From Cloeon dipterum (lineage: Eukaryota; Arthropoda; Insecta; Ephemeroptera; Baetidae), in assembly GCF_949628265.1 (NCBI RefSeq), contig NC_088789.1:30745883-30809882 (forward strand): a DNA stretch of 64,000 nt. The letters run 5' to 3'. The position numbers and the translations under genes were made by a program. Of the stretch, positions 7,339 to 49,952 are shown one piece after another; position 1 is the stretch's first letter, and each line of letters begins with the position of its first letter. The notes beneath the pieces are model-generated. The model was not told the origin of the DNA and did no database searches. It worked only from the letters and a program-made list of their open reading frames with translations.

Positions 7339-9529
7339 AAAAATTCTCACGATGGATAACCGAAAATAGGAATTCTTACAAAATCAGTATAAAATCCACT
7401 GATGGTTTTACCAATAGACTGTACATTTAAACTCTTCAATCATCATAACTTTCCAAAATTTCAGCTTTTTACGGCGCGCAATATGGCTTTTTCGGGGTTC
7501 AATTCGGAAAAAGGCAGTAAACCCCAAAACTGATGGTATTGCTAGCTGATTTTTTGTACATTGCGAAATTGACGAACCCTGTGACTTATAAAAACCGATT
7601 TCCCGCCTAATGCACTTCTTTTATCTGAAAACATCATTGCTCCTATTCTTTAAATAAATTTTAATTATGATCATTTGAAAGGAAAAAACAGACGTGTTAC
7701 AAAAATCTTCATAAACCTTACTTTTGGCGTCTATTTTATAGCATAAAACGCAACTTATAGCGGGTTCACCAATTTTGCTGTTTTACTGTTTTAAAGCGTT
7801 CTGCGCATACAACAAACGGTGATTTGACATTGCGAAATTGGCGGGAAAAGAACAGTCGCTTAAATTTAATATGCTCTTTCAATCGATAATCCTAAAACCG
7901 ATCATCTAAGGCTGCGCAGTAGGTTTGTGCGTATTACACGCATGCGCAGTAGGTTTCTACGCATGATAAACATGCGCATTGAGTACAATTAGAGCCTTTA
8001 GGTTGCGAAGATCATGTAACCTTCCACTGCGCATGCTTTTACCGCTGTAAAACGCTCTGCGCATACAACAAACGGTGATTTGAAATTGCAGAATTGGCGG
8101 GAAATGAAGTTGTTAAAATTTAACCATGTTATTTTGATTGATTAGCCTAAAAGCGATAATCTAAGGCTGCGCAATATGTTTGTAGGCATTGCATGCATGC
8201 GCGGTAGGTTTCTGCGCATCGCACGCATGCGCAGTTGACATAATGATTGACACTTACGCAATTTTTAGTTGATGCATGAATTTTTAAAATTTCAGGCCAT
8301 CTCAAAAATTCCCAAAAATGAAAATGGTGTGTATTATTTTATTGAGTTGAGATATCATCCTCTCATTTTTACCAATTAACTTATTTTTCCGTTTTGAATA
8401 ATCTTTCAACTGAAAAAACATCGCAGGTCAAAGGCTAGGGTCTTCTTTTTCGATCTTTTACAAGAATTTCAGGTTGATATACCCTTAAAATTTTATTTAG
8501 GTTCATGACAAAAGAAAGCCCATGCTTATTCTGCACAGGTACAACAAAAGTTTCAGGGTGGAAATTGAGAAAGTTAAATTGTAATATAATTTTAAAGTTT
8601 AAAAACCGGAAATTGATTTAATAAAATAATTTTTTCTTGTCCTAGTAATAAAAATATACCAAATTGAGGTCAATTATAACTTTCAGGGTTTGATCCTGAG
8701 TGTCCAATCATACGAAAAAATATTTAAAATATTTTTCAGCTCGTAAATTAATTTAAAAAAGAAGAACATGTACCTTGCTGGCTCCCTTAATAAGAGTCCT
8801 TTATTATTGGGTTTCACAGCGAGAAGAAATAGAGGTTGCCGCCAGCAGAGACTATGAATGGAATAGCAAAGTGCAAGGGTCCTGAGGGTCGAATTAAGTA
8901 AAGTGGATATTATTTTCCAAACTAGAGGGCGAATGCAACGAGTGGACTTTATTCCCGCAAAATCAATATGAACGTATATGCGAGAAGTGCGCATGCGTGA
9001 GAGCTGGTTTGAGCACTTGCAGAGAGACGGTCTGCACGATTTACGAATGACATATTTGTCAGTTACGTAATTCTGCGGTTCATTCACTTCACTCGTTTAT
9101 TTTTGGTAATTAGTTATCTCCAAATTGTTCTGCTCCTTGGAATGCTAGCGCCTAAACTGAAAATAATAACAGAGACACGGACGAGCCAGTATTCCAGCCG
9201 ACCAATAAAATCATACTTTTTGCGATATCTTTAACTTTTAATTTAACAAACTAATGCTGAACTGAATACAGTTTCAAGCATTCACAGAGTGTGCAAAAGC
9301 AGGAATAATCTGAAATCATAAATAACATGCTATTTTTGCAAGTTTTGATGAAAAACCAAAAAATAATTCTTTCGATACTAAATTTTGTTTGCAGCTTGCA
9401 GCCTTGACTAATTGTAAGCAGCGATGAGCAGACAAAAAAAAGAAGAAACCTGTGATAAATACCGGAAGTATTAGCAACGGTGAGTTATAAATATTAGCGT
9501 TGGAGTCGATTCATAAATTTTTAAATTAG
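7339..9529. other. Repeat-rich intergenic stretch
   Basis: No supported gene. It contains a direct duplication (7790-8240) and, at about 8880-9070, half of the foldback family whose fuller copy sits at 25471-25830 (shared tatgaacgtatatgcgaga and gcgcatgcgtgagagctgg blocks). A 134-codon minus-strand frame over the second repeat is rejected as coding. Confidence 0.5.
7790..8240 (+). repeat. Direct tandem duplication of about 250 bp
   Basis: Two diverged copies start at about 7792 and 8042. Both carry tctgcgcatacaacaaacgg, tgatttga, a ttggcggga block, ctaaggctgcgca and a terminal cluster of gcatgcgca motifs. CpG-rich GCATGCGC palindromes recur within each unit. Confidence 0.65.
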
Positions 9530-9569
9530 GAATGCTCGAGAGAGAGAAGAGCCGAAATATCCTCAGGAC

Positions 9570-11084
9570 ATGAAAATGGCTGAAGATGAGCAAAAAGATA
9601 GGCTAAAGACCAAACTTGAGTACGTCAAAGCGAATAGAGACCACTTCCCCTCTCTGCACTTCGCGGCCAGGGTGTCAGATATTGAGGTGTGCCGTCATCT
9701 CGTGGAACAGGAGGGCGCCGATATAAATGAATTATGCAGAAGATTTGGCGCTACTACTCTGCACTACGCCGCCATGAACGAACTTCACGGAGAAGCTTTG
9801 ATCGACTATTTCCTCGAGAAAAAGTGCAATCTTGAAAGAAGAGATAGATGTGATAAAAGAGCGATCGATTATGCGCTTAAAGCTAGAAATTTCGAGCTTG
9901 CAATCAAATTGTACTACTCATCACAGAATCTCAAAAGTTTTAAAAAAAGACAGAGCTTGCTTCACTTTTCTCTAAATGTCAACAACTTAGAATTCGCTAA
10001 ATTCGTCTCTACGAACGATGTGAAGTTGTGCAAGGATCTTGAATATGATTATGAAATTCTTCTGAAAGGATGCAAGTGTGGAGATGTGGCAATCTGCAAG
10101 TGGTTGCTTGAAGAGGTCAAAATTACCGACAAGTGGTTTTGGGGAGACAAATGGAAAAGCAATGTTCTTGGCCATGCAGCTGCGAATAGAAACTATGCAA
10201 GAGACGTCCTTCAATATCTGTTCTCAAGGTTACAAATCTCGACCGATGATCAAAAAAATGCTTATGGGTATGCTCTTGTGGCAGTAGTTAAAAGAAAACC
10301 TTTCATAGCTGAAAAAGCAGAAGAGTTAATTCAGTTGCTAGGCTGTAACATTAGGATGAAAGTATCAGGATATACTTTTATGCATTACGCCGTTACAAGC
10401 AATTTATTCTCATTGAAATTTTTGCACGGAAAGGACACAAGTCTGATCGACGAGGTCAGTGACGATGGCGCCACAGTTCTCCATTTCGCAGCAATTTTTG
10501 GAGACGTCAATATGTGCATGTGGCTGATAGAACACGGACAAGACATCTACGCTATGAACAAAAACAATCGTGGAAATTTCCTCCATTACGCTGCTCAGAA
10601 CGCAAAAAACGGACACTTGATCATTAAAAAATTTGGACACATCCTGCGCGACTTGGTGCATTACTTCGACAATTATTACTACACTCCCCTTCATTTGGCC
10701 CTGGTCAATGATAGACTTTCAAGCGCTAATGCTTTGCTTCAGCTCCGTGCTAATTTGAGACTTAAAAGAAAAGGAAACAACTTCCTTCACTTCTGCATCG
10801 TTATGGGCAAGTTGAAATCTGCCAAATTCGTGCACGCCAATAACAAAAATCTCATCAAGGAAAAGGGCGAAGGAGGAAAAACCACACTGCACATTGCTGC
10901 TGACAACTTTGATGAAGAAATCTGCGCATGGCTAGTGAGTGAGGGAGCCCATCCTGAAGAAACTACCACCGGAGGAAAAACTGTTCTAGAATCCACTTGC
11001 AGTGAGAACGCCAAGAAGTTTCTCCAATCACTCATCAGAACCAGAAAATGGACATATTTAAAAAAAATCGATTCATCGAATTAA
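9570..11084 (+). CDS. Ankyrin-repeat protein, 504 residues
   Basis: A single long frame made almost wholly of ankyrin repeats. The N-terminus is charged (residues 1-25). From about residue 25 to 495 there are roughly a dozen repeats with TLHYAA, FLHYAA, TPLHLAL and TTLHIAA cores, interrupted by degenerate units where the family uses less canonical helices. There is no signal peptide, membrane segment or catalytic domain, so it is probably an intracellular protein-binding scaffold. A second Met is at residue 3. A possible 50 bp 5' UTR intron runs 9480-9529 (donor gtgagt, acceptor aaattag). An AATAAA lies near 11138. The repeats resemble the ankyrin part of the large NACHT gene at 24-32 kb more than the four-gene family at 33, 48, 53 and 63 kb. 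Confidence 0.85.
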   Translation: MKMAEDEQKDRLKTKLEYVKANRDHFPSLHFAARVSDIEVCRHLVEQEGADINELCRRFGATTLHYAAMNELHGEALIDYFLEKKCNLERRDRCDKRAIDYALKARNFELAIKLYYSSQNLKSFKKRQSLLHFSLNVNNLEFAKFVSTNDVKLCKDLEYDYEILLKGCKCGDVAICKWLLEEVKITDKWFWGDKWKSNVLGHAAANRNYARDVLQYLFSRLQISTDDQKNAYGYALVAVVKRKPFIAEKAEELIQLLGCNIRMKVSGYTFMHYAVTSNLFSLKFLHGKDTSLIDEVSDDGATVLHFAAIFGDVNMCMWLIEHGQDIYAMNKNNRGNFLHYAAQNAKNGHLIIKKFGHILRDLVHYFDNYYYTPLHLALVNDRLSSANALLQLRANLRLKRKGNNFLHFCIVMGKLKSAKFVHANNKNLIKEKGEGGKTTLHIAADNFDEEICAWLVSEGAHPEETTTGGKTVLESTCSENAKKFLQSLIRTRKWTYLKKIDSSN

Positions 11085-24057: not shown

Positions 24058-24160
24058 ATGCACAGTAGCTATAGATTTAATCTGAAATCCCAGGTAGAAA
24101 TGCCTTAAAACTAAATTTTTTAGAAAGTCTAAGAAAGTTGCGCCATCTGTTGGCGGCTTA
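23960..24160. mobile_element. Foldback A, right-half fragment
   Basis: Only the right arm is present: accgattttggttttcaaca, then gaagaatgcacagtagct, then gcgccatctgttggcggctt. The copy is diverged and ends 35 bp before the first confident caspase exon. It overlaps the candidate start exon at 24058-24093. Confidence 0.75.
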
Positions 24161-27100
24161 TAAAATATAGAATAAACAAGACATTAAATTTTCAGGATAA
24201 AAGTGATAAATGCGATGGGCTTAATTTAAAATTTAAATTTGATGAATATGGATTTGTCAGCCGAATCAACAAGACTTCCTATAAACATCAACAAAGTTGT
24301 TCAATCAGGTAAAAGATAATTTAAATTCTACCAAAAATAAGAGATAATAAAAACAAAACGTGAAAAAGGTCAAGCTCGAGGAAAATCTGATGATCCCGCA
24401 GTCCTTGGATATTTCGAATCAAATCTAAACGGAAAAATTGTTCGACAAAATGCAGACAAGTGACTATAAATATAGAAATCATCTTCAAACTTTTCATTTT
24501 TTCTTTTAATATAATAGCGTGTGCGTTCTTGTTGTGCACTACGACTTCGACAAAGTCGAAAGAGACAGAGCCGCGTGGTTCCGAGATGGAGACGTGGAAG
24601 ACGTGGAGAACCTGAGGAAGACATTTGAAAAAAACCGGAAGTGCAATTTCCGCAGTATTTTATCCCCAGAAAAAGAGCTGCTGCTCCAACTTCTTGCAGA
24701 TCAAGAACAGCTTTTGCGATTTTTCTGCTTGGAAGGTGGTAAAATTACATTATTTGTAATATTTTGTATTTATAATAAAATTAATTCACAGAGGTTCCTT
24801 CAGTTTTTCTCCTTTTTGTCCTTTCACACGGCAAAAGCGATGGGAGAATTTACACAGACCACTGGAACGAGGAATTAAATGATTTTATTCAGTTTTCCAC
24901 AGAGGAAATTTTCTGCTCCTTAAAAAAATTGGATCTATTCAACGACTGCCTTAAAATCACCGTTTTTGGAGTGAGATTGTTTAAATTTAAATTTAAATAA
25001 ATTAAATCCAAATTACAGCCATGTCGAGGGGAGTTGGACGATGTGATTTTCGACCCAAACCGGAAAATCACCAATTACGACAACCGGAATTCGTGCCGGA
25101 TTACTTTCTCTCCGGAAATGCACAACCTGGTCATTTTTTACTCAACAGTTGAGAGTAAATGCTAGATAATGTGAAATTTTTCTAAATAAATAGCGAAATT
25201 TTCCCACCTGCAGCGACCCTGGCGAAACGAAACGAGAAAGGAACCTGGATTGCATCCGCGACCTGCGATGTGCTTAACGAGATTGATAAGGATAAGCCAC
25301 TGCTAGTCGTTCTGTCATCGATACAATTCAGGCTGCACAACGTTTCAGGAGCAAACTACGACGCTGAAAAAAGCAGATCCGTCGGACAGACACCTGAAGT
25401 GAAAATTTTCTCTCAGGACAGAACCTTTTTCTTCCGCAAGTAAGCAAATCTGCGGTTAAAGACCATCTCTGACGAAGTTTCTGAGCTCACCAATCGATTC
25501 TTGAGGGTCGTATTAGGTAAAAAAGATATTTTTCCGATCAAAAAGTGCAGAACGTTTTTTCCCGCCAAAACTATATGAACGTATATACGAGAGCTGCGCA
25601 TGCGTGAGAGCTGGCTGGACGTGATAAATAAGAAGTCTTTCGTACAGGTGGTCTCTCTGCAAGTGCTCAAACCAGCTCTGACGCGTGCGCACTTCTCGCA
25701 TTTAACGTTCATATTGTTTTGGCGGGAAAAAAAGTTCGCAAGTCGCGCTGCACCTTTTTTGGTTGCAGAAATGATCCACTTTACGTAATTTGACCCTCAA
25801 GAATCAATTGGTGCGCCCAGAAACATCGTCAAGGACGTTCTTTAAAAGTAAATAAAAATTTCATCTATATATACTTTTTTAAAAGGAGTTTGGTTGCTGC
25901 GAAACCACCTCGCTCAACGTCTGACGCAAAGAAACAGAAAAAAGACACGGCGATCAAAATTGTGTCAGAGTTTTACCCTTGGAAGTCCGCTGCGGGACAA
26001 AACATCCGAGGGAGACGTGCGTTTTTCTTTTACGAGCAGTGGAACGAGGAAGTGGAAGAAATGTCCAGGGCGCTTTCTCAAAATCTGGACTTTGAAACCA
26101 ACACCAGAAAGCTGAGCTGGAAGTCTTTGATTTTGTACAAAAAGGAAGGTTAGGTTTATAAAACTGTAGTGTTTGTTAAAAAAATTTAATTTTGTATTAA
26201 ACAGTTTGCGACTTGGAAAATGATGTTGGTTGCAGTTTGTCCTGTTTCTTTGGTCAAGTGACCGAAGAAAAGGATACAAAGGAGGTTTGCGTTCTCGTAG
26301 ACAAGACAGAGGTTCCAATTACAGAGATATTGCACGGATGTGTCGGCCCGAATAACGAAAAATTGATCGGAAAGCCTAAAATCCTTATTCTCATCGATCA
26401 GAAGGCAACAATTCAACATGATAATGTAATTGTCATTATTAATTCCCTGAATTTCAATATTAAATAGATTTAAACGTTTTAAGGCACCTTCAAACTGCCA
26501 TGACTTCAGAATCTCAGCCACAAATCACAGCGGTTGGCTCATCCTCCATTTAAAAGACAAAGGTATAAATATCCACAGTTATTGCGCATAGAATTGAAAC
26601 AATTATTATTTATGTGTAGAGAAAGTGCATGAGCTGATTCAGATCTTGAAAAGCGATCAATTAAAAATTGGGAGAAGCTTGCAAGAGGTGCTAGCAAATC
26701 TCCTAATTTCTAAAGGAACAAGAAACAAGGAATTCCTGAATTCAACCCTGCAGTTTCTCCTCGACTTTCCGGACTGGCCGAGATTATTCGTCAGGCCGAA
26801 CTTTTCACTGATAAGGAATGAACAAGGTCCTGTAAATAACACGATCAATTTCACCGAGTTGTTTGAGAGGGCCAAAACACTGGCAAAGGAAAGTCAAGTT
26901 TGGCTTTTGAGTTCAATCGCAGGCACGGGAAAAACGACCGTGCTCAGGGAAATCGCGTTCCATTTAGGAAAATCTGACCCCAACGTGAAAATATTACGTG
27001 TGTTGCTGTCGAAAAACTCGCTTTATTTCGCCAAGAATAATATTGTGAACGAGATCAAATATCTCGCAGAGACAACTAAGAATTCGGCTGAAGAAATCAC

Positions 27101-30100
27101 CAATTGGATTGTACAGAAAAAGGTCGTCATTTTCCTCGACGGATTTGATGAAATCTGCCCTGTCCACCGAGATAAAGTTATGACTCTTGTAAAGGCTTTG
27201 AGGGAGAAGGATATTTCGCTTTGGATCGCAACGAGACCTCATGAGATGGCAACAATTCAAGAGGTCGAAGAAAATGTGGTTATGTTCCAAATAGAGCCTT
27301 TCGACGATGAAAAACAAACCGAACTGCTTACCTTAAGAACGGAGAAAAGTAAAGATGAATGCAACCGATTCTTGAGTGAGTTTCAGAACAAGGATATTCT
27401 GCAAAACCCTCTGCACCTTTCCCTGCTCGCTCAATGCAACGGTGAAGGGAATTTGTACCAAATTTACGACAGAGTCGTGAAGGAAAAGATTGATATGTGT
27501 CTCGTGCGGAAAGGGTACGACCAGAATAATCAAAATGCCTTTTTAGAGCAAAGGGAACTGACCCTGAACCTCCTCCGAATGATAGCATTCCGCTTAATAC
27601 TCGGAGTTGACCTGGTCGGCCCAGGAGAGACCACGGCAGAATTGGAAAGGTTGAATGATTTCGGCATTTCCAGCTTTGCGTTTGGCAGTGTCACGTTTAT
27701 TCACCAAACCTTTGCCGAATTTCTCACCTCTCAGCAATTTTTAAAGGATTTGGAAGACACCGGCACGTCAGTGCTGCCTTTGTTTCGTCAGGAGGGTCCT
27801 GAACAGTGCAGGATGTTCGTGGATTTGTTCTACGCCACCTTGACGGAAGAAGAAGACATAAAGTTACACACACAATATCTTTTGACTTTTGCAAGAGCAG
27901 AACTAGATTATTATTTCGACCCGATTTGCAATGAGCAACTGAGGAACGTTTTCAGCCTTTTGAAAGGCCACGTAACGTTTCAAGGAGGTCAAGGAAAGTC
28001 CATCGGTATGACGGACGGTCCAAAAATTGTAATGAAGGCGATAAAGTGCGACGAAATTGCGGCCGGATTGTTGGACATGTGTGCCATCAAGGACAGTCCC
28101 CAGCTGGTCCAGATGCTGCCTGAGCTTCTGGAGAAAATAGCCAAGCACAACGCGGTTGGTTTCCTGAAAAAGATCAAAGAGAAATTTCCCGACTTGCCAG
28201 AGCTAATTCGATCTAGAAGCTCGGACATCAACGCGGCATTTTACGCCATTGAAGAAGGACATGCCGAACTTCTCGATTCACTCCTGGAATGCGGCGTTGA
28301 CGTGAATTCTGTAAAGTACGCCGTCAACGCCCTGTACTTTGCGTGCATGAAGGGAGATGTCAAGTGCGTAGAGGTTCTGCTGAAACACGGAGCTAAAGAA
28401 GCAGTGTTTCGAGGACTAGAAGAAATTCAATACGGTTATTATAACATCAATTTGTACGAACTTCAAGGGTTCAATCCAACGGGAATCCACGACCCACTTA
28501 CTGTGGCTGCGTCATTCGGCAAGTTGGATGTCGTCGAGTACCTTTTGCAGGAGAAAATCAGCGGTTTTATCCGTGACAAGACTACATTTGAAATCGACCA
28601 GTTCAAACAAGAGTGGAATGCCTTCCAATACGCTGCGTACAAAGGAGAGGTTGACGTAGCCGAATGCTTGTTTGGCAAGAGTCCTGATTTGAGGGACAAG
28701 AAAACCAGGGACGGAAAAAGTCCGTTGCAGTTGGCTGCGGAAAATAAACAGTCGGAGATGTGTTGGTGGCTGGTCAAGGATGCAGGAGTTGACTGGAACT
28801 CTTTATTTCCGGACAGAGAGGAGCCAGATTGGACCGTCATTGATTTTACCTACTTAGATTATCTGATGATGCTCCAGGACGACGTCCATAAATCTGACGT
28901 GAGGGGCAAAACGAGTCTACACTGTGCTGCCGAATACGGGGACTTGAAATCGGTCCAAAAGTTAATTAATCTAGGCGCGAACATCGAAGCAACAGACAAG
29001 AAAGGGTGGAATGCTGTCCATTTCGCTTGCAGAAACCTTAAATCTAGCAATTACAAAGTTCTCAAATTTTTGCACAAGAAAAACAGTTTCCTCGCGAAGG
29101 AAAAAACGAAATGTGGAAAAACAGCGTTGCTGATTTTAATTGAGAGCAGCAATAAATATTCCGCAAATGTCCTTCTGATGACCATATTTCTGGTTGAAGA
29201 AGCTGGGGTTGACGTAACTGCCATGGACAGTAAAGGACAAACAGCCTCAAGTGTAGCCGCAAACAAAGAACTGAGATGCATCGATTATTTAGTCAAGACT
29301 GACCCATTGTTGGAAGATAGGAGGGGCAACAAAGGCATACATTTGGCTGCGGAGACTGGGAATTTGGACACCCTGCACGGCTGGATAAGGATGGGAGGAA
29401 CATTGAACGTGACTAATAGCGAGGGTTCAACGGCGCTGCACATAGCAGCCAGTTGTGGACATTTGCCATTTTTGGAGGAATTAGTCGAATCGGGCGTTGA
29501 CGTGGATGCCATCAACCTCAGGGGCGAAACCGCACTCCTACTCGCTTGCAGAAATGGAAGAGTTGACGTCATTGACTATCTCCTGTCCAAGAACGCGGAC
29601 GTCAATAAATACGACGAAAATGGCGACTTTCCTATGCGATCCGTGGTCAAAAGTGATCAAGTAGAATTGGTGCAAAAATTCATCGATCACGGCGCTAATT
29701 TGAATCTTAAGGACAGTCAAGGGAAAACCATTATGCACCACGCCATTCCTAGCCGCAAAATGGTTTCCTTCCTGCATACGAACGACAAAGAATTGGTGAA
29801 AGCCAAAACACTGGAACGCAACACAGTATTGCATCTAGCAATTATGCAATATCGTGAGGGAAAAAGCGAAGATTTGATTCGATGGCTCGTTGAGGAGTCT
29901 GAGGTCGACGTAAATGCCGTCAACGTTAACGGATTTACAGCGCTTCAACTTGCCTGCAGCGAGAAAAAATGGAATGCCGTCGAAATTCTCCTATTAGCAG
30001 AAGACCTTGATGCCAACATAAATCTCACACAACGAGAAGATCCCACTCTACACATCCTAGCGGAAACAAATCGAATTGATTTGGTGCAAAAGTTGATCAT

Positions 30101-32195
30101 CGACAGAGGCGCTGATTTGACAATTAAAAATGAGCAAGGAATGAATGTTATGTACCACGCTTTGAAAAATTTCGAAATGCTCAAGTTCCTGCATGAGAAA
30201 AACAATGAACTAGTACACGAACTGACCAATAACGGTGGCACAATCTTATTTTCCGCGATCTATGGGTACTCAAACATAGAGCAGGACATGACGGTGATTC
30301 GTTGGCTCGTAGAAGAAGCAAAAGTCGACTTGAACGTCACTGATAACGACGGCCAATTTGCACTAGAGTATGCTGCAGAACTGAGAAAGTTTAACCTTGT
30401 GGAATATTTCCTCACGAAGAACGTGGAGGTCAATAAACAGGATTCAGAAGGAAAAACTACCCTGCACCACGCGACGAGATTGGGAAGCACGGTTGTGGTG
30501 CAAATATTGCTCGACCACGGTGCCGATTTGACTATCAAGGACAAGGAAGGAAAAAACGTTCTGCACTGCGCCCTAGAAGAGATGGAAATGGTTCAGTTCC
30601 TGCATGAGAAAAATGAGGAACTGGTGCAGGAACGAGCCTTGGATGGAAGATCGTCTTTGCACCTCGCAATTGAAGAATATTTTCACTCTGACGATTTGAT
30701 TTGCTGGCTCGTGGAGGTTGCCACGATGGACCCAAACGCTACGACCGAAAATGGCGAAACGGCCCTTTTAATTGCCTGCCAGTTCAGCAAATGGGAGATT
30801 GTGGAATTTCTGCTTACCAAACACGCTGATCCAAACATTGCAGAAGATCTGAATGGAACTGTCCCTCTGCACCTTGTCGCCAAAGCTGGAAGGTTGGAAC
30901 TGGTAACAAAGCTGATAAAATGCGGTGCTGACTCGAATCTGAAAGACAACGAGGGAAAAAACTCGTTGCATCATGCGTTGCAATTCTTCGAAACTGTTTT
31001 ATTTCTTCACGATTCCAACAGTGATTTGGTAAGCGCGGTGACAAACGATGGGAAGACTTCTTTACACCTTGCGATTGAAATATACGAGTATTGTTTAGAG
31101 GGAATTCGTTGGCTCATAGACGAGGCCAAAATTGATTTAAACGCTAGGAGCGAAAATGGGGAAACAGCTCTATCGATTGCCTTCAAACTCGAGAAATGGG
31201 ACCTTATAGACTTCCTGTTGACAAAAAACGTTGATGCTAACATCCCCGATAGGAAAGGAACGGTACCCCTTCGTCTAGTTGCCGGAAGAGGAGATTTGGA
31301 ACTGGTAAAGAAGCTGATTGAATGCGGTGCCGATCCAGCTCAGAAAGACAACGAGGGAAAAAACGCATTGCATCATGCGTTGCAATTCCTAGAAGTGATT
31401 GAGTTTCTTCACGATTTCAATAGTGATTTGGTTAACGCCGTGACAAGCGACGGAAAGCCTATTTTGCACCTGGCGATGGAAAGATACGAGCATCATTTAA
31501 AGGCGATTCATTGGCTCGTAGAAGTGGTAAAGATCGATTTAAATGCTACAAACGAAAATGGGGAAACGGCTCTACTGATTGCCTTTCAGCTCGAGAAATG
31601 GGACCTTATAGATTTCCTTCTTACAAAAAGTGTCGATGCTAACATCCCAGATAGGAAAGGAACTGTGCCCCTTCACCTAGCTGCCGGAAAAGGGGATTTG
31701 GAACTGGTAACGAAGCTGATTGAATGCGGTGCTGATCCAGCTCGGAAAGACATTGAGGGAAAAAACTCATTACATCATGCGTTGCAATACTTTGAAATTG
31801 TATTGTACCTTCACGATATTGACAGTGATTTGGTGGGCGCAATGACCTTCTTTGGAAGCGCTTTACACCTGGCGATTGAAATCTTTGATTGTCCTGAAAA
31901 ATTGATCGGTTGGCTTGTGGAAGGAGACAAGATTGATCTGGACGCGTGCAATGCGTTCGACGAAACGGCGCTTTTGTATGCCTGTCAACTCCAGAAATGG
32001 GAGATTGTTGGTTTTCTGCTTACCAAAGAGATCAACCCAAACATTCCAGGCATGCAAGGAACTGTTCCCCTTCATCTTGCTGCCAGAGCAAGAAATTTGG
32101 AGATTTTTAAAAAGCTGATCGAATGCGGTGCCGACTTGACTCTGAAAGACTTCAGCGGTAAAAACGCTCTGCACCACGCTGCTGCAATTCTTTGA
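24058..32195 (+). CDS. Caspase / pseudo-caspase / NACHT / ankyrin fusion protein
   Basis: Ten-exon model: 24058-24093 (candidate start), 24196-24308, 24518-24735, 24792-24970, 25019-25154, 25214-25439, 25886-26148, 26205-26425, 26484-26562, 26620-32195. It is in phase throughout, about 2348 residues. Domains in order: (1) caspase domain, residues about 30-300: FRDGDVEDVENLRKTF, catalytic His in VLSHGKSDGRIY (about 135), Cys in FGPCRGELDD (about 184), and p10-like YSTVE, GTWIASATCDVLN and a final FFFRK. (2) a caspase-like region, about 303-490, with EVPITEI and LIGKPKILILI but FFG and DQKA where His and Cys should be. (3) NACHT, with Walker A AGTGKTT (Lys about 595), Walker B VVIFLDGFDE (about 664) and WIATRP. 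(4) linker, then about 35-40 ankyrin repeats from about 1030 to the end. By analogy with STAND receptors it is probably an intracellular ligand-sensing switch releasing a protease; substrates and ligands are unknown. One donor (24735 or 24738) is ambiguous. The last repeat is cut by a frameshift. Confidence 0.85.
25471..25830. mobile_element. Foldback F in a caspase-NACHT intron
   Basis: A 360 bp inverted repeat inside the intron between the two caspase-like regions. Left end: gacgaagtttctgagctcac, then caatcgattcttgagggtc. Right end: the complement (gaccctcaagaatcaattgg). Arms also share tatgaacgtatatacgagag/gcatttaacgttcatattg and cgcatgcg blocks. A half copy lies at about 8880-9070. It explains why this intron (446 bp) is much longer than its neighbours. 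Confidence 0.75.
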
Positions 32196-32326
32196 AATTG
32201 TTTTGTACCATTTGTTTTTGACATGAGCATTAAGGATAGTGAAGGAAATTCTGCTCTTCAATACGCGGTTGATCGTGAACTACCAGACTTGGAGCAAAAT
32301 ATGCGAAGTTTAATGAATAAGATTTA
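32196..32326 (+). pseudogene. Remnant of further ankyrin coding sequence
   Basis: Just before the stop at 32193, a one-base gain (cacgctgctgcaattc against catgcgttgcaattc in sister repeats) ends the frame. Beyond it the LQFFEIVLY motif continues in another frame. From about 32230 a third frame reads IKDSEGNSALQYAVDRE and stops at 32326 (tag). The array was evidently longer and has decayed. Poly(A)-type AATAAA signals follow at about 32391 and 32419. Confidence 0.6.
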
Positions 32327-32639
32327 GAAAGTGAGGTTTTTTGTTTTAATTCGTTATTGTTTAAAGATGTATGATCATTATTGTCATAAGAAATAAATCT
32401 GTTTAAAACAATATATGCAATAAAGGTAGGAATTCCTGTAGAAACATAGATAAATAAACAGCTAAAAAGAAGATTTTGATTTTTCATTTAAAATATTAAA
32501 CCTAATGCATTTTTCATTAATAATTCTCCAACGAAAATCAACTATATAAGAACGGTTGCTTCGCGCCAAAATTTAAAAATTAGCCTGACGTCGAGCCATC
32601 CCTCACTTTTTTCCTGAGAAGTGACGGAGCATCACCGTG

Positions 32640-32736: not shown

Positions 32737-33038
32737 GTAAGAAATATTTTTCATAAAACTTAATCTCCAAAATATACGCTCTAGCAAACCTCAATTTGCT
32801 CCATAAAACAAATTCATTTTGATAAAATTTCGTGCACGAAATGTATAGGAAATAATAAGATAGACTTAACCTATAAGTTAAAAAATCAAACTCAATTTTT
32901 ATTCATGGTTTAAATTCCCGGGGCACTTTCAAATAATATTAGAAAAGGTTTTTGAAAAGAGTAATGTCCGTGAGCTGCAATTTTTGTTAAAAGTATAGGA
33001 ATCTTAGGAATTTTTCTTTTGTAGTAAAACGACCCAGC

Positions 33039-34412
33039 ATGGATGATCAATCCCTAAGAGTGGAATTCCTCCCTTACGACTCTCTTGAAGAAAGGTTGGA
33101 GTTCGTCAACGAATGCATTGGTGACATTCCTGCAATTCTGTACTCGGCAGAATTCGAAGACTTAGATTTATGCCAGGAGCTCGTGAATACAAAGGGAGTA
33201 GATGTCAACGAAAGGGATGAAAATGGCTTCGACGTCTACCATTGCGCAGCCCAGAATCAAACCTGCGACTTGGACCTGCTCGATTTCTTCGTGTCCTGTG
33301 GAGCAACAATGCAAAGAAGAAATTTCACTGACGTTGATGCAGTCAATTTCGCTCTGGAACGCTGGAATTTTAAGTTTGCCTTCAAGCTGTTTGATTTGTA
33401 CGAATCCGAGGAGAGCTTTCTCCTGCATTGCATTTGTAGCAACCTAGATTCGTTGAAACTCGCTTTTGGGCAGGACCCTTCTGTGGTCAAAGTGAAGGGC
33501 AGTGACGAATTCGACACGCGAATTTTGAAGGAGGCGGCCCGGTTCAAAGATTTGGAGACATTCGAGTGGCTCGTCGAGGTAGCCAGCAGCTTCGTCGGAG
33601 ATTTATTCAAGAGTAAAGAATGGCAAATCGAAATTCTCAGGGAAGCTTCTCGCAATGATGAACATGGTGAGGCAATCGCCGCCTTCATATTTGCTTCTTT
33701 CCCCAGGACCTCGAGCGAAAATGATTTGACACAAGTTCTCACGGATATCATTCTGAGAGGAAACTTGGAAGTCGCCAATTTATTGGTGGATAAAGGTGCC
33801 AACCTGAATGTGCGCATGAAAGGGCAAATATCCCTCTTTCAGCACTGCGTGGCCATGAATTCAGTCAGGGCCGCCAAATTCGTGTACCAACGGCACCCTG
33901 AGATGGTAAACACACGCACGGTGATTCGCGCAGCTTGCCAGGCAAACGTTGAAATGTGCGAGTGGCTGCTTGGACTTCCCAAGGACCCCAACCTTTGTGA
34001 TCAAGCACCCTTGTTTTTTCAGGGCGTTTTGAGTAACATAGAGCACGGCGCAGAAATCATTCGTCGCTTTGAGTCAAAAGTGCGTGCGCGTGTAAATGAA
34101 CCTTTCAAAAGGTTCGATCCCGTCGGTCCCTTACTTCCACTCTATGCGGCCATGAAAATTGAAAACCTTGAGGCTGCAGAGGCGTTGCTCGAGATGGGCG
34201 CCGATTTGAACGTGAAACTTCAGGGCGTTATAAATTTGCTGCTCTACTGCTTAGGGATTAATTTTCTAGGAGGCGCAAAATTTGTGTATTCTAAGGACAA
34301 GAGCCAGCTGGACGGTAAATTCAAGGGCGCCGCTATGCTAATCGCCACGAAGTATGGAAACCAAGAAATGAAGCAATGGCTAAATGACGTTCTGCCACCC
34401 ACTCAGGACTGA
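33039..34412 (+). CDS. Ankyrin-family protein, 457 residues
   Basis: Intronless coding frame after a 5' UTR intron (32737-33024). It belongs to the local four-member family. Shared marks are a LEERLEFVNEC-like opening helix, an IPAILYSAEFEDLDLCQEL ankyrin start, NGFDVYHCAAQN, the block QDPSVVKVKG near residue 150, and a C-terminal LEAAEALLEMGADLNVK repeat followed by a GAKFVYSKDKSQL motif. Between them are many degenerate helix pairs rather than textbook repeats. No catalytic domain or membrane segment. It lies 0.7 kb downstream of the NACHT gene on the same strand but has its own TATA box. AATAAA is near 34462. Probably an intracellular binding protein; partner unknown. Confidence 0.85.
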   Translation: MDDQSLRVEFLPYDSLEERLEFVNECIGDIPAILYSAEFEDLDLCQELVNTKGVDVNERDENGFDVYHCAAQNQTCDLDLLDFFVSCGATMQRRNFTDVDAVNFALERWNFKFAFKLFDLYESEESFLLHCICSNLDSLKLAFGQDPSVVKVKGSDEFDTRILKEAARFKDLETFEWLVEVASSFVGDLFKSKEWQIEILREASRNDEHGEAIAAFIFASFPRTSSENDLTQVLTDIILRGNLEVANLLVDKGANLNVRMKGQISLFQHCVAMNSVRAAKFVYQRHPEMVNTRTVIRAACQANVEMCEWLLGLPKDPNLCDQAPLFFQGVLSNIEHGAEIIRRFESKVRARVNEPFKRFDPVGPLLPLYAAMKIENLEAAEALLEMGADLNVKLQGVINLLLYCLGINFLGGAKFVYSKDKSQLDGKFKGAAMLIATKYGNQEMKQWLNDVLPPTQD

Positions 34413-39700: not shown

Positions 39701-40770
39701 ACCAGCAGAACACACTTTTGGAATTTCTACCACACATTTTTAAAATAAAAGACCCTTTACCCTGAATGTTTCAGACCTGATCAACTTTGAAGTTTTGAAC
39801 AATAAGTGCAAAAAGGGTATTTACATCTTGAACGTGGGCCGCGGAGGAATCGTGAACGAGGAGGATCTATTGAGGTCTCTCGAGTCCGGCCAGTGTGGCG
39901 GAGCGGCTCTGGACGTGTTCACGGAGGAACCGCCAAAGTCTGCAGGACTCCTTCGACTGCTCGCCCATCCCAAGGTACTGGTCACCCCGCATTTGGGTGC
40001 CAACACCACCGAGGCCCAGAAAAGGGTGGCTGTACAGATTGCAGAGCAATTCATCGCGCTAGCTAAGGTAAATTTTTCCTTTTTTATTTCAGAAATATAT
40101 TTTAAAACATAGAATTAATGTTAACCTTCCACAGGGAGCAAGTCTGTCCGGCGTGGTCAACTGCCCTGCCCTGATGACCGCAATGAAAGCGAACAACAAG
40201 CCATGGTTCGACCTGGCGCAGGCCCTGGGTTCCTTTGGGCCCTCGTCCAACTGCACCGTTACCTTGCAGACCCTGGGCCAGGGCATGGAGCGGCTCACCT
40301 CCGACCTTTGCCCTGCCGTGCTGGCCGGCATGCTGGCCTCAGGGGACGTCAACATGGTCAACGCCCCCGTGCGGGCCCTGGAGTCCAGAGTGAAAGTGAA
40401 GATCAGGTCGGAGCACCTTCCAGGTGGCAAGGAGCAGGCCCTGGTGGTGAGCTTCAGCGACGGCACACGCGTCCAGGGCAGCGTCATCGAGGGCGTGCCG
40501 TGCATCCAGGCTGTCAACGACGCCACCTTCGGCCCCAAGAAGGGCGTCGAGCTCAGCGGCAACCTGCTCGCCAACAACCTGGCGAAAATGGTCATCAACC
40601 AGGGGGACAAGCTCGTCATACAGACCACCGCGCAGGGCGGCGCCGACTGCGTCGCCGTCCACACTGAAGGCCTCGCGAACGGCAGCATCACATTATACCA
40701 TCATCATCTAAATTTCATCGGAAAATCCAATCCTGTTCTGCTGAAGATTCATTGCGAAATTACAAAATGA
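36771..40770 (+). CDS. PHGDH: D-3-phosphoglycerate dehydrogenase, 7 exons
   Basis: Exons 36771-36899, 37141-37283, 38232-38297, 38539-38692, 39201-39333, 39775-40067, 40135-40770 join in phase to 517 residues, close to the usual animal length of about 530. It oxidises 3-phosphoglycerate to 3-phosphohydroxypyruvate with NAD, the first step of serine synthesis, in the cytosol. Diagnostic motifs: [12 protein letters not shown] near the substrate site, the Rossmann GLGRIGR for NAD, the HMPLIPQTK block, catalytic Arg in [10 protein letters not shown], Glu in DVFTEEPP and His in TPHLGANT. The last exon is GC-rich with strong third-position GC and holds the regulatory (ASB-like) region. The terminal residues ([12 protein letters not shown] onwards) do not look like a conserved ACT-domain end. 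Exon sizes are conventional; introns 2 and 5 contain transposons. Confidence 0.96.
37346..37772. mobile_element. Foldback A, copy 3, in PHGDH intron 2
   Basis: Full-length 427 bp copy with accagttgcataaaccctta ends, entirely within the intron between exons 37141-37283 and 38232-38297. In the pre-mRNA it could form a long hairpin. Confidence 0.85.
39469..39691 (+). mobile_element. MITE-like element, copy 2, in PHGDH intron 5
   Basis: Reverse-complement match to 21317-21530, bounded by gatggcgtctg and cggacgccatatc. It sits in the intron before the exon at 39775. Confidence 0.6.
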
Positions 40771-42261: not shown

Positions 42262-44021
42262 ATGCAGCCGCCGAGAGTCAAAGAAGGAAAAATTCCCATT
42301 CAAAAGCCGCTGTGCCGTCTGTGCGAGTGTCCGACGTCGGACGGCCACGTCCTCGCGTCGCAGGTGGACAGGTTCAAGCTGAGGAAATGGGCCATGAAGG
42401 TCATGAACCTGACGGAAGAAGACGAAAACTTGCCGGAAGTGGTCGAAGAAGACGCTTTGATCTGCTATTTTTGCATCTGGCACGCCGAGTGAGTTTTTTC
42501 ACGAGATTAAAAATTTAATTTTGATTTCAACGCGTGTTTTAGGTTTGGGGATGAGTCCGGAGACGAGGCTGTGGCTTGGTGGCCGAAAAACCTTGATTTG
42601 GATGAAAATGCTAGGGTGCTGCGTGAGAATTATTCAAGTATGGAATTTTTACAAAAATATTTTGTGAACGCCTTATTTTCTATTGTTTAAATTTTACAGT
42701 TGGAGATGTGGAACAGTGTTGGGTGCAGTTGGAAGAGATTGATCTGCCCGAATACGAAAAGGAAATCCCCGAGGAGAGGAAATGCGACAGTGCAGTTTGT
42801 CTTTACTGCGGAAATAGTTACAACCGACTGATGGAACACGTCAGAGAGATGCACAAAGAAGCAATCAAATGCAGAATTCGGGGCTGCGCGACTTACTTTC
42901 ACACCGAGGAAGAAAAAGAGCAGCACATGCAGCACGACTTTCACGCGAACCAATGCGAAAGCAGAGAAATTCGTTGCAAATTTTGTGAAAACGGCAAATT
43001 GTATTCCTCAGTTCATATGTGGAGGCAGCACATGAAACGCAATCATCCAGAACTTTCGGTGCGGTGCACGCGTGTAGGCTGCAGAGAATATTTCAAATCC
43101 AAGTCTAGAATGATTCTCCACTTCAACTCATCGCACAAACGAGCCATAAATCAAGATCTTTACCAATGCAAGCATTGCGAGTATTTCACCACGAAGATGT
43201 TCGCTTTGAGTCGACACGTAGAGGGGAGGCACATGCCAAAGATATTCAAATGCGACAGTTGCAACGCCAAATTCGGCTCGAAAGTGTTAGTGAATGTGCA
43301 CTTCAAACAATTTCACACGTTTGAAAAGTGCAAATCTTGTGGCCAGGACGTGGCTCCCGGGATCATAGTACGCCACAGAAGACAATGTGTTTGCCCCAAA
43401 TGCAAACTGAGATTCAAGTGCTCGGGTTTGTATCAATTGCATTGTAAGAGCTGCAAACAAACTCTTCTTAAATGCAAAGAATGTGGAAAAACTTTTAACG
43501 AGTCTTATAAGTTGTATATCCACGCGAAAAAGGTTCACACCGAAACCGCGATTGTTCACTGCGAGCATTGCGACTTTTCTGCATATGCCAAGAATATATT
43601 GAGTGTCCACTTGCAACGCAAACATTTGCCAAAGACGATTAAGTGTGATGAGTGCGACAAATTGTTCGCATCTGAATCATTTCTCAAAGCTCACAAACAG
43701 AGGAGGCACAAATACGTTCGTTGTGCGGAATGTGCTCAGGAGATGAGCCGTCAAACCATGATTAACCATCGGACCGTCAAGATTTGCCGCTGCTGCAAGT
43801 GCAAGTTGAAGTGCTCAGGACTTTTTCAAAAGCATAAGAAGAGCTGCAAATCAACCGGTTGCAAAGAGTGTGGAAAAACGTTCAACATGAGTTGGAAGTT
43901 GAATTTACACATGCATAGAGTTCACAACAAAGGTGTGATTTTTCGCTGCGACCATTGCGATGTTTCTACAGTTCACAAGGGCAGCATGGTGCGGCACATG
44001 CAACGCAAACATTTACCATAA
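42262..44021 (+). CDS. ZAD C2H2 zinc-finger protein (tandem copy 1)
   Basis: Exons 42262-42488, 42543-42637 and 42700-44021 give 547 residues. The N-terminal ZAD-like domain has Cys pairs in LCRLCECP and ICYFCIWHAE, split by an intron exactly as in the three sister genes, then an acidic AVAWWPKN region and EQCWVQLEEIDLPEY. From about residue 130 there are about 15 C2H2 or C2HC fingers; fingers 6-10 and 11-15 are an internal five-finger duplication (compare CDECDKLFASESF with CDSCNAKFGSK). ZAD dimerises and the fingers bind DNA, so it is probably a nuclear transcription factor; targets unknown. AATAAA is near 44242. Coding sequence related to another finger lies beyond the stop. Confidence 0.92.
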
Positions 44022-45590: not shown

Positions 45591-47356
45591 ATGCAGCAGC
45601 CGAGAGTGAGAGAAGGAAAAACTCCGATTCAAAAGCCGCTGTGCAGACTGTGCGAGTGTCCGACGTCGGACGGCCACGTCCTCGCGTCGCAGGTGGACAG
45701 GCTCAAGCTGAGGAAATGGGCCATGGAGGTCATGAACCTGACGGAAGAAGACGAAAACTTGCCGGACGTGGTCGAAGAAGACGCTTTGATCTGCTATTTT
45801 TGCATCTGGCAGGCAGAGTGAGTTTTTTCACGAGATTAAAAATTTAGTTTTGATTTTAACGCGTGTTTTAGGTTCGGGGATGAGTCCGGAGATGAAGCTG
45901 TTGCTTGGTGGCCGAAAAATCTTGATTTGGATGAAAACGCTAGGGTTCTGCGTGAGAATTATTCAAGTATGGAATTTTTATAAAAATATTTTGTGAACGC
46001 CTTATTTTCTATTGTTTAAATTTTACAGTTGGAGATGTGGAACAGTGTTGGGTGCAGTTGGAAGAGATTGATCTGCCCGAATACGAAAAGGAAATCCCCG
46101 AGGAGAGGAAATGCGACAGTGCAGTTTGTCTTTACTGCGGCAATAGTTACAACCGACTGATGGAACACGTCAAACTGATGCACAAAGAAGCAATCAAATG
46201 CGGAATTCGGGGCTGCACGACTTACTTTCACACCGAGGAGGAAAAAGAGCAGCAAATGCAGCACGACTTTCACGCGAACCAATGCGAAAGCAGGAAAATT
46301 CGTTGTAAATATTGTGAAACCGTCCTTTTTCTTTCCTCGTCGAGTAATTTGAAGAAGCACATGTTTCGCAAGCATCCGGAATTTCCGGTGTTGTGCACGC
46401 GTCCAGGCTGCAACGAGTACTTCAAAACCAAGTCCGAAATGATCCTCCACTTCAATTCGCACAAACGAGCCATAAATCAAGATCTTTACCAATGCAAGCA
46501 CTGTGAGTATTTCACCACGAAGATGTCCACTTTGAGTCGACACGTAGAGGGGAGGCACATGCCAAAGGTCTTCAAATGTAGCAGTTGCAACGCTAAATTC
46601 GGCTCGAAAGTGTTAGTGAATGTGCACAACCAACAATATCACACTTTTGACAAGTGCAAATCTTGTGGCCAGGACGTGGCTCCCGGGATCATAGCACGCC
46701 ACAGAAGACAACGTGTTTGCCCCAAATGCAAACTGAGATTCAAGTGCTTGGGTTTGTATCAATTGCATAAGAAGAGCTGCAAACAAACACCATATAGTTG
46801 CAAGGAGTGTGGAAAATCTTTCAACAAGTCTTCTAAGTTGTATATCCACTTGAAAAAGGTTCACACCGAAACCGCGATTGTTCACTGCGAGCATTGCGAC
46901 TTTTCTACATATGCCAAGACTAGATTGAGTGTCCACTTGCAACGCAAACATTTGCCAAAGACGATCAAGTGTGATGAGTGCGACAAATTGTTCGCATCTG
47001 AATCATTTCTCAAGGATCACAAACAGAGGTGGCACAAATACGTTCGTTGTGCGGAATGTGCTCAGGAGATGTGCACTCAAACCATGTCTAAACATCGGAC
47101 CGTCAAGATTTGCCGCTGCTGCAAGTGCAAGTTGAAGTGCTCAGGACTTTTTCAAAAGCATAAGAAGAGCTGCAAATCAACCGGTTGCAAAGAGTGTGGA
47201 AAAACGTTCAACATGAGTTGGAAGTTGAATTTACACATGCATAGAGTTCACAACAAAGGTGTGATTTTTCGCTGCGACCATTGCGACTTTTCTACAGTTC
47301 ACAAGGGCAGCATGGCGCGGCACATGCAACACAAACATTTACCGCATTTACCATAA
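45591..47356 (+). CDS. ZAD C2H2 zinc-finger protein (tandem copy 2)
   Basis: Exons 45591-45817, 45872-45966 and 46029-47356 give 549 residues. It is a recent tandem duplicate of the gene at 42262, with the same ZAD, introns, EQCWVQLEEIDLPEY segment and about 15 fingers. Differences are concentrated in fingers 3-4 (CKYCETVLFLSSSSNLKKH; FKTKSEMILHFNSH) and in single residues of fingers 6-9, which would alter DNA preference. In the first Cys pair region IWHAE became IWQAE. It ends HLPHLP through a short duplication before the shared stop. AATAAA is near 47629. Confidence 0.92.
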
Positions 47357-48449: not shown

Positions 48450-49952
48450 ATGGCTGACGCAAATGAGATGAGGATTTACCGTGAGTAACAATTTAAATTG
48501 TTATAATTGCAATTTCACGTATGTATTTTTCTTTTGCCAGAAGAATTACCCATAAGTAAACGTGGAGAAGAGCATTATTGCGAGCGATTCGATCCGTCGG
48601 CACCTCTCCAAAAAAAGCTGGAATTTATCCACAGGAATAACAAAATTCCAGCCATTCTGCACGCGGCAGAATACGGTGATTTGGAGGTATGCAAGGAACT
48701 CTTGGAGCAAGGCGAAGACGTCAACGCCACGGACGTATTTGGCTACGACGTCTATCATTTCGCCTCTATGAATGAAACCTGCGGCTTGGAACTGATCGAT
48801 TTGTTTGCGGCCCACGGTGCCATAATGAAAAGAAAAAGCTGGCAAGCAGACCTTGATGCAGTCGAGCTCGCTTTGAGCGAAAATAATAACGTAGAGTTTG
48901 CGATCAAGCTTTTCAATTTATACAAATCACCGGCGAGCTTTCTTTCGTGCTACCTGCGTCAAAGTGATGACTTGGAATTGATGAAGTTGGCTTTTGAGAA
49001 GGACCCGTCTGTAGCCAAAGTAAAGGGCGAAGACGGATTCGACAAGACTATTTCGTGCAACGTGGCGCGGAAGTTAAATCTGGACGTATTCGAGTGGATT
49101 CTTGAAGTCATCATCACTACCGAAGAAGATTTATTTTACGAGAAGAAGTGGCAACTTGACATTCTCAAGTATTCTGCCTTCAACAAGCTGCACGGTGGGG
49201 ATATCGCCAACTGCATTTTTTCTTTGCTCATCAGTAATTTGACGAGAGAAGATTTGACGCCTCTCCTCGTTACTGTCGTGTCGTCTAGGATGCCTGAAGA
49301 TGTGAACATGAACGTTGTTGGACTACTAGTTGAAAATGGTGCCTACGTGAATGCAAGAATTAATGGCAAATCCCTCCTTGATCACTTCGTGGCTTCGAAT
49401 TCATTATCGGCCGCCCAAGATGTGTACAAATGGAGCCGAAAGGAGATTTGCGCGAGCACCTTGCATTACGCCGCAGCGAAAGCGGATGTCGAAATGTGCG
49501 AGTGGCTCGTTGGACGTCCCATGGCTGCCAACATGGGAAATAAAATACCAGTTTTCCTGCACAGCGTTACAGAGAACCACAAACACGGAGCCAATCTCAT
49601 TCGTCGCTTTGATCGAATTCTGCGTGATTATGTAAATGTTGCCTCTGGAAGAGAGCCAGATGATCTAAAGACTCCACTCCAATCGGCCATGTATAACAGA
49701 AACCTCGGAGTTGCAGAAGCTTTGCTAGAAATAGGCGCCGATTTGAACGTGAAATATAATACCTATAATTTGTTAATGTACTGCCTGTGGAACAATTTTC
49801 TGGACGGCGCCAAGCTTGTGTATGCCAGAGACAGGAGCCAGCTTGGTACGGATGCATTAATGAATTTAGCTTTGCATCTGGCTAAATTTAATAAAAACAA
49901 GACAATGGAACAATGGCTGCGGGGAATTGCAGTGTCCCCTATTGGACGCTGA
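48450..49952 (+). CDS. Ankyrin-family protein, 480 residues
   Basis: Coding exons 48450-48480 (MADANEMRIY) and 48541-49952. The donor is gtgagt and the acceptor ttttgccag, and phase is kept through a split Gln codon. A 5' UTR intron is likely (donor caa|gtaagt near 48289, acceptor cttgcag before 48433). The start given here is preferred because the sister gene at 62788 has the same short first exon. Family marks: FDPSAPLQKKLEFIHRNN, IPAILHAAEYGDLEVCKELL, FGYDVYHFASMN, EKDPSVAKVKG, NLGVAEALLEIGADLNVK, and GAKLVYARDRSQL near the end. No enzyme domain. Its upstream region is a copy of the zinc-finger upstream module. Confidence 0.88.

Follow-up and report, generated by a model that had tools for sequence, protein, structure and literature searches.

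According to our in silico analysis, a stretch of 64,000 nucleotides from the mayfly Cloeon dipterum (C4:30745883-30809882, hereafter the window) carries a gene that joins an active-type caspase domain, a second caspase-like domain, a NACHT NTPase and an ankyrin-repeat array in one chain. The window contains no N and lies within a 190 Mb genome of ten contigs. This domain order had been proposed in a preliminary description made from the letters of the stretch, and it was borne out by profile matches, by the sequences of relatives and by a structure model of a close relative. Three features had escaped that description: domain 2 is catalytically dead, the S1 pocket of domain 1 is non-canonical, and the gene is one of approximately 91 or more caspase-NACHT-ankyrin genes in the Cloeon genome.

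The gene model comprises ten coding exons on the plus strand, separated by nine GT-AG introns with consistent phases, and encodes a product of 2352 residues. It starts at ATG 24242 in exon 1 (24242..24308), which comes from the in-phase splice model, and is followed by exon 2 (24369..24459), the lead-in to the caspase domain. The p20 part begins in exon 3 (24518..24738), which is placed by the splice model and by Pfam, and continues in exon 4 (24792..24970) with the catalytic His codon at 24827-24829 (LSHG). Exon 5 (25019..25154) contains the catalytic Cys codon at 25022-25024 (GPCRG) and the beginning of the p10 part, to which exon 6 (25214..25439; AKRNEKGTW and GQTPE) also belongs. A linker and the beginning of the second, dead caspase domain are encoded by exon 7 (25886..26148), the core of this pseudocaspase by exon 8 (26205..26425) and its end by exon 9 (26484..26562; ATNHSGW). 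Exon 10 (26620..32195) encodes the NACHT domain, a helical middle part and the ankyrin array, up to the stop codon TGA at 32193-32195.

Nine exons from 24196 had been described as joining in phase, and these joins hold. However, that form skips exon 2, its first exon overlaps our exon 1 in another frame, and it needs an upstream start. A possible alternative first coding exon with ATG 24058 (24058..24093, plus strand) is in phase with the exon from 24196 and would fit, though it comes without conservation evidence. We prefer the ten-exon form because the exon 2 product is conserved in the family (Gly36 in 70 of 71 aligned rows, Phe38 and Ala51 in 68 of 71) and is also present in P0002, a public Cloeon protein from a contig of 202771 bases. 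Transcripts of both forms may exist. The end of exon 3 falls at 24735 or 24738 and the frame is kept either way; P0002 lacks one residue at this point, and the end may therefore be 24735.

P0002 is 90% identical to the window product over the caspase region and has the same junctions onward. Part by part, the caspase, pseudocaspase, NACHT and middle regions show identities of 90.4 to 96.4%, and the value drops to 87.9% over the first half of the ankyrin array and to 80.5% over the second. The front of P0002 carries an extra ankyrin protein, which looks like an annotation fusion. At the other end, the stop at 32195 is due to a frame change shortly before it, in the region 32150-32328, which shortens the ankyrin array of the window copy relative to P0002. 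The ankyrin tail continues in the other frame to about 32328, and this out-of-frame remnant (32196..32328, plus strand) is like the in-frame tail with which P0002 ends.

Domain 1 is a caspase domain with p20 and p10 parts. Pfam Peptidase_C14 matched residues 54-294 (E 6.7e-16), in line with the profile check proposed earlier, for which NACHT (E 2.3e-9) and Ank_2 (E 1e-161) were also recovered. Compared with the PDB, the single sequence matched caspase-7 at E 2.5e-4, in an alignment that brings the active-site stretches LSHG and CRG into register, and the family profile matched 3sir (named Caspase) at 7.4e-19 together with many caspase-3 chains. To analyze conservation, we collected 71 domain 1 copies from 76 public proteins and the window, each covering at least 230 of the 286 query positions, and dropped partial copies; an earlier set under the same coverage rule held 61 copies, from 64 public proteins and the window. 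The catalytic His (His139 in the window copy) is found in all 71 near-complete copies and the catalytic Cys (Cys188) in 70. Two further positions, Arg75 and Arg237, we take to be S1-pocket residues. The former is Arg in 68 of 71 copies; the latter is Arg in 46 and Thr in 20. All 23 Neocloeon copies have Arg (22) or Lys (1) at the Arg237 position, so that the Thr form is seen in Cloeon only. Together with a change from Gln to Gly ahead of the catalytic Cys, these pocket substitutions suggest that the cleavage site is perhaps not the usual Asp. As to the origin of domain 1, nine other caspase-matching stretches of the genome (L030-L038) match the family profiles of domains 1 and 2 only partially.

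Domain 2 of the window copy, taken alone, has no Peptidase_C14 match in Pfam, the single hit being a sub-threshold one to SF-assemblin (E 0.096). In the longer query, the E 0.5 threshold is also cleared by a second stretch of Peptidase_C14, for which the output gives no position, and among single domain 2 sequences 4 of 14 members match Peptidase_C14. The family profile of domain 2 matches PDB caspases at E 9.7e-9 and the structure model of the P0002 domain 2 has a caspase fold, which upholds the earlier reading of a second caspase-like domain. Direct comparison of the domain 1 and domain 2 profiles fails (hhalign probability 0.9%); domain 2 is thus tied to caspases because its family profile matches caspases outside the family, and not via domain 1. 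A model of the two domains together reached a predicted template modelling score (pTM) of 0.79.

The active site of domain 2 is lost. In the window copy, CFFGQ stands at the expected SHG site and GKPKILILIDQKA at the expected QACRG site. Using active-site columns that we assigned from the GKPK stretch, neither a His in columns 409-411 nor a Cys in column 460 was found in any of the 67 domain 2 copies in which 150 or more of the 195 positions are covered. A His does stand at 412 in one copy, and a Cys at 461 in one.

The NACHT NTPase core lies at 26919..27329, and a genome scan places the same stretch. It scores 37.7 bits with PF05729 against a cut-off of 26.7. Walker A (GTGKTT from 26922) and Walker B (FLDGFDE, 27132-27152) are intact, as previously noted, and the domain can be placed in the NACHT clade of STAND proteins. 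Further downstream, FIHQTFAEFL (27696..27725) presumably corresponds to the winged-helix motif of NLR-type NACHT proteins; DGFDE and HQT.AEFL are invariant in all 13 aligned family members. The ankyrin-repeat array extends from approximately 28242 to 32192, with 20 Ank_2 stretches, and includes an ankyrin unit of 402 bases duplicated in tandem (30894..31834; 2.3 copies, 82% matches). All these features are on the plus strand. No leucine-rich repeat (LRR) appears among the 21 Pfam families listed for the window protein, in which the repeats match ankyrin families. No CARD, PYD or death domain was detected in the first 527 residues, where Pfam gives Peptidase_C14 only, or, at E 0.01, in five relatives scanned. 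Because neither an LRR nor a death-fold domain was found, we describe the protein as a STAND receptor and not as a bona fide NLR.

We then considered the family across the genome, where all counts are lower bounds. The Pfam NACHT model gave 101 matches, all without internal stops; its profile also exceeded the threshold in 3 of the 14 prokaryotes used as controls. The p20 exon (exon 3) and the pseudocaspase exon (exon 8) gave 109 matches each. Both exons lie upstream of NACHT on the same strand for 91 of the 101 NACHT matches, at a median distance of 2011 bases for the p20 exon and 701 bases for the domain 2 exon, and the 93 NACHT matches that have a p20 match pair with 93 different ones. The ten NACHT matches short of a domain have domain 1 only (2), domain 2 only (4) or neither (4). 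Conversely, 16 of the 109 domain 1 matches and 14 of the 109 domain 2 matches are without a listed NACHT. Among 21 NACHT loci that were fetched, 20 contain the caspase, pseudocaspase and NACHT parts. The loci are partly clustered, and the largest cluster holds 18 NACHT matches (C4:35.6-36.0 Mb).

The same architecture is present in a second mayfly genus, Neocloeon. A search with residues 46-520 returned 64 protein matches, from Cloeon dipterum (50) and Neocloeon triangulifer (14), so that the order of domains sought in other arthropods is indeed found in relatives. Family profiles find domain 2 and NACHT in all 64 and domain 1 in 63, and most of these proteins are entered in the public records as 'uncharacterized' or 'Hypothetical predicted protein'. 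Alignment and NACHT searches, whose reach is limited to word-sharing relatives, yielded more Cloeon and Neocloeon proteins and no caspase-NACHT protein elsewhere. In the alignment search (7994 candidates sharing most words), matches that bear no mayfly name have ankyrins and, by precomputed Pfam, neither caspase nor NACHT; the NACHT search showed no named bacterial protein among 76 matches.

Several other proteins were encountered in these searches. P0117, P0118 and P0119, from Chironomus and Polypedilum midges (1593 to 2156 residues), have a NACHT-like domain that matches the family profile at E 2.3e-26 to 8.8e-30, and in P0117 and P0119 ankyrins precede it. Related NACHT domains, some with ankyrins, occur in the metagenome proteins P0110, P0112-P0116, P0121 and P0122; P0110, P0112, P0113 and P0114 may represent exon fragments from longer genes because their sequences begin at NACHT. 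The domain 1 and domain 2 profiles find nothing in the midge and metagenome NACHT proteins. Within Cloeon, the public model P0001 has three caspase-pseudocaspase sets in 2585 residues, either a real fusion or merged neighbours, and P0007 and P0010 have identical caspase domains and different lengths (1426 and 1403 residues), which points to duplication or conversion in the recent past.

In a quick tree of domain 1, in which long branches make deep placements unsure, 46 of 48 Cloeon rows group together with support 94, and a second group, with support 95, takes in 17 of the 23 Neocloeon rows; a single supported pair crosses the genera (P0056 with P0055, support 96). From this grouping, a few lineages seem older than the Cloeon/Neocloeon split and most copies younger. 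To compare selection between parts of the protein, we estimated the ratio of nonsynonymous to synonymous substitution rates (dN/dS) for 16 of the 21 fetched NACHT loci; eight short loci from the genome scan and L039 were likewise outside this set. The second part was taken to start 270 codons after Walker A and covers the winged-helix motif, the helical part and the ankyrins; pairs with at least 60% identity were printed, two of them without the second part. The dN/dS behind NACHT exceeded that in NACHT in 32 of the 32 pairs of paralogues that gave a value for each part; these pairs are not independent of each other. In an eight-gene cluster on C4, it was 0.53-1.02 behind NACHT compared to 0.23-0.72 in NACHT. 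Such faster evolution may be what is expected of a sensor part, or may reflect relaxed constraint.

Each of the two mayflies has a family member with BIR and RING-like parts. The NACHT of Neocloeon P0120 is related to the family profile at E 2.6e-33, compared to just E 0.031 with the Pfam NACHT model, and the protein also holds ankyrins, three BIR and one RING. Its front is similar to domain 1 (hhalign 86.5%) and to domain 2 (78.1%) and gave no match in the PDB. The Cloeon counterpart, L039 (C4:8632000-8640800), is 36% identical to P0120 over P0120 residues 1309-1700. It has a domain 2, and a single frame of 1288 codons with NACHT, ankyrins, two BIR matches and a RING-like end. With dead caspase-like domains in front and the BIR and RING-type parts at the C-terminus, L039 and P0120 each amount to an inhibitor of apoptosis protein (IAP) fused to an NLR-like protein, and might act as a brake. 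In the Cloeon genome, 43 of the 102 BIR matches lie within about 105 kb (C3:7772011-7877466), so that IAP-like genes are also expanded.

Taken as a whole, these results point to an extensive family of intracellular STAND receptors in mayflies, belonging to the NACHT clade and carrying their own protease, a reading to which we give a probability of about 0.72. The direct-protease effector receptor proposed in the preliminary description thus remains the best reading of the domains, profiles, relatives and P0002-version model, its function being inferred. STAND NTPases switch via nucleotide-driven oligomerisation, and initiator caspases are activated by proximity. In the mechanism that we propose, a ligand would be recognised by the ankyrin array, and recognition would lead to nucleotide exchange and oligomerisation of NACHT, as in other STAND receptors. 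The oligomer would gather the caspase domains and allow their activation by proximity without CARD or death-domain adaptors. By analogy with c-FLIP and caspase-8, the dead caspase domain beside each active one might act as a built-in partner or brake, and the protease output would be cell death or the processing of immune substrates. A bolder version, which we hold as tentative and on the doubtful side, is that around 100 one-chain inflammasomes, with an internal caspase-pseudocaspase pair and a non-Asp specificity, form a self-contained immune system in baetid mayflies, together with a dead-caspase receptor with BIR and RING that joins and shuts the oligomers.

Several observations weigh against this receptor reading, or narrow it. 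The case for an immune function would draw on the number of copies, their tandem clusters and the contrast in selection. None of these is specific to immunity, and relaxed constraint fits the last of them equally because the dN/dS values behind NACHT do not exceed about 1. Dead members do occur: P0040 carries Ser in place of the catalytic Cys, L039 has SYG in place of SHG in domain 1, and the P0120 front, as we read it, is without the catalytic His. They may be under-counted because the copy sets were gathered with an intact copy as the seed. Used by itself, the Pfam caspase model gave only 36 exon-wise genome matches, many of them in other caspase genes. Finally, the pentapeptide in the window is GPCRG and not QACxG, which passages of PMC2575513 use as a caspase criterion, and Gly takes the place of the Gln in 67 of 71 copies; for this reason peptidase activity of domain 1 is not certain.

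The changes in the pentapeptide, the Thr form of the S1 Arg in 20 of 71 copies and the Ser of P0040 would all suit a family that cleaves no longer and serves as scaffold or decoy. We judge this rather improbable, given that His and Cys are kept in 71 and 70 of 71 copies while the adjoining domain has lost both in 67 of 67. There is somewhat more room for the view that the window copy itself is a decaying pseudogene inside a working family, still a minority view in our estimate: the frame change shortens its array, and our protein search found no public record of its own, only P0002 at 90%. The copy may be a damaged member or simply a shorter one. Against decay, its exons are open over 2352 residues, its catalytic and Walker motifs are intact, and it agrees with P0002 in 80.5 to 96.4% of residues in every part compared. 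The family-level finding is independent of this copy. Separate caspase and NACHT genes, the outcome that would have undone the preliminary description, were considered and rejected: intron phases, relatives and genome spacing all fit one gene. Automatic models do fuse neighbours, as in the extra ankyrin front of P0002 and the three caspase copies of P0001. Even so, with phase-perfect introns, a fusion that recurs across two genera and in dozens of models, and a regular spacing in the genome, we find it very hard to believe that adjacent genes were merely joined by the model.

Other roles were considered for the same machinery. A regulator of developmental cell death, with Apaf-1-like control of apoptosis in place of an immune receptor family, would make sense of a caspase next to a STAND NTPase, which is the logic of the apoptosome, and of the BIR and RING-type member in each mayfly, again apoptosis control. 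We consider it unlikely: about 91 copies, clusters of up to 18 NACHT, a mostly species-wise expansion and faster evolution behind NACHT resemble receptor repertoires more than a core pathway. Recognition of self and non-self or of genome conflict, as by fungal incompatibility STAND proteins, would use the same machinery with another ligand. According to parts of PMC4986451, fungal NLR-like proteins often combine NACHT with ankyrins. High copy number and repeat turnover are as compatible with this recognition as with pathogen sensing. Nevertheless, we know of no fusion of mayflies with conspecifics, and a self/non-self role seems to us improbable.

The remainder of the window contains other open frames. 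Ankyrin-only frames surround the receptor gene at 9525-11084, 32991-34412 and 48507-49952 on the plus strand and at 51634-53031 on the minus strand. C2H2 zinc-finger-like frames form two similar pairs (42627-44021, 45956-47356, 56108-57154 and 59706-60941; Pfam on two of them). The open frame at 40072-40770 has a match just below cut-off to the D-3-phosphoglycerate dehydrogenase intervening domain and is probably an exon of that gene.

In our search of the open-access literature, none of the listed titles and abstract openings dealt with mayfly NLR-like or caspase-NACHT genes, and the words NACHT, caspase and ankyrin are all absent from the main text of the Cloeon genome paper (PMC7250882). 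Sections of other articles report that NACHT is absent in Drosophila (PMC2575513), that a shrimp has an NLR (PMC12370184) and that NLRs of arthropods have no N-terminal effector (PMC11508797). With about 91 caspase-bearing NACHT receptors in a mayfly genome, the absence of NLR-type receptors described for model insects cannot be extended to insects in general. The family also offers a clean test system for whether STAND oligomerisation by itself can activate a caspase in the absence of an adaptor, and for the role of a linked pseudocaspase.

Compared to the NLR inflammasome receptors, the mayfly proteins share a NACHT with an NLR-like winged-helix motif, an N-terminal effector, a C-terminal repeat sensor and large lineage-specific repertoires. 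They differ in that the effector is the caspase itself and not a recruiting adaptor, and the sensor is ankyrin and not LRR. As with c-FLIP and caspase-8, a dead caspase domain is paired with an active one, but the mayfly pair, a putative dimer, lies in one chain. The LRR-caspase and TNFR-caspase hybrids of amphioxus likewise join an animal receptor part to a caspase, whereas those named in the relevant passages of PMC2575513 do not join it to NACHT. In fungi (PMC4986451) and the coral Acropora (PMC4083563), NACHT or NB-ARC followed by ankyrins also forms large repertoires; in contrast, the portion considered of the fungal effector table of the former lists other enzymes, and the coral effectors given in excerpts of the latter are CARD, DED and Death, with no caspase. 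NACHT receptors are numerous in the NLRX set of the sponge Dysidea avara too, a few of them with an N-terminal domain other than CARD or DEATH according to parts of PMC12909245, although the sponge proteins are NACHT-LRR. A figure legend in that source lists the caspase domain CASc, so a caspase-NACHT-LRR chain may exist there; if it does, the fusion is not unique to mayflies. A parallel in design comes from bacterial STAND proteins, which, according to sections of PMC4986451, often have an enzymatic domain such as metacaspase at the N-terminus, notably in cyanobacteria; the all-in-one form is suggested there to be possibly ancestral. The bacterial metacaspase proteins also combine protease, NTPase switch and sensor in one chain, but in the mayfly the protease is a caspase of the animal type, which has p20 and p10 parts and is accompanied by a dead second copy. 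The mayfly lineage thus shares with bacteria a design that puts protease, switch and sensor all in one.

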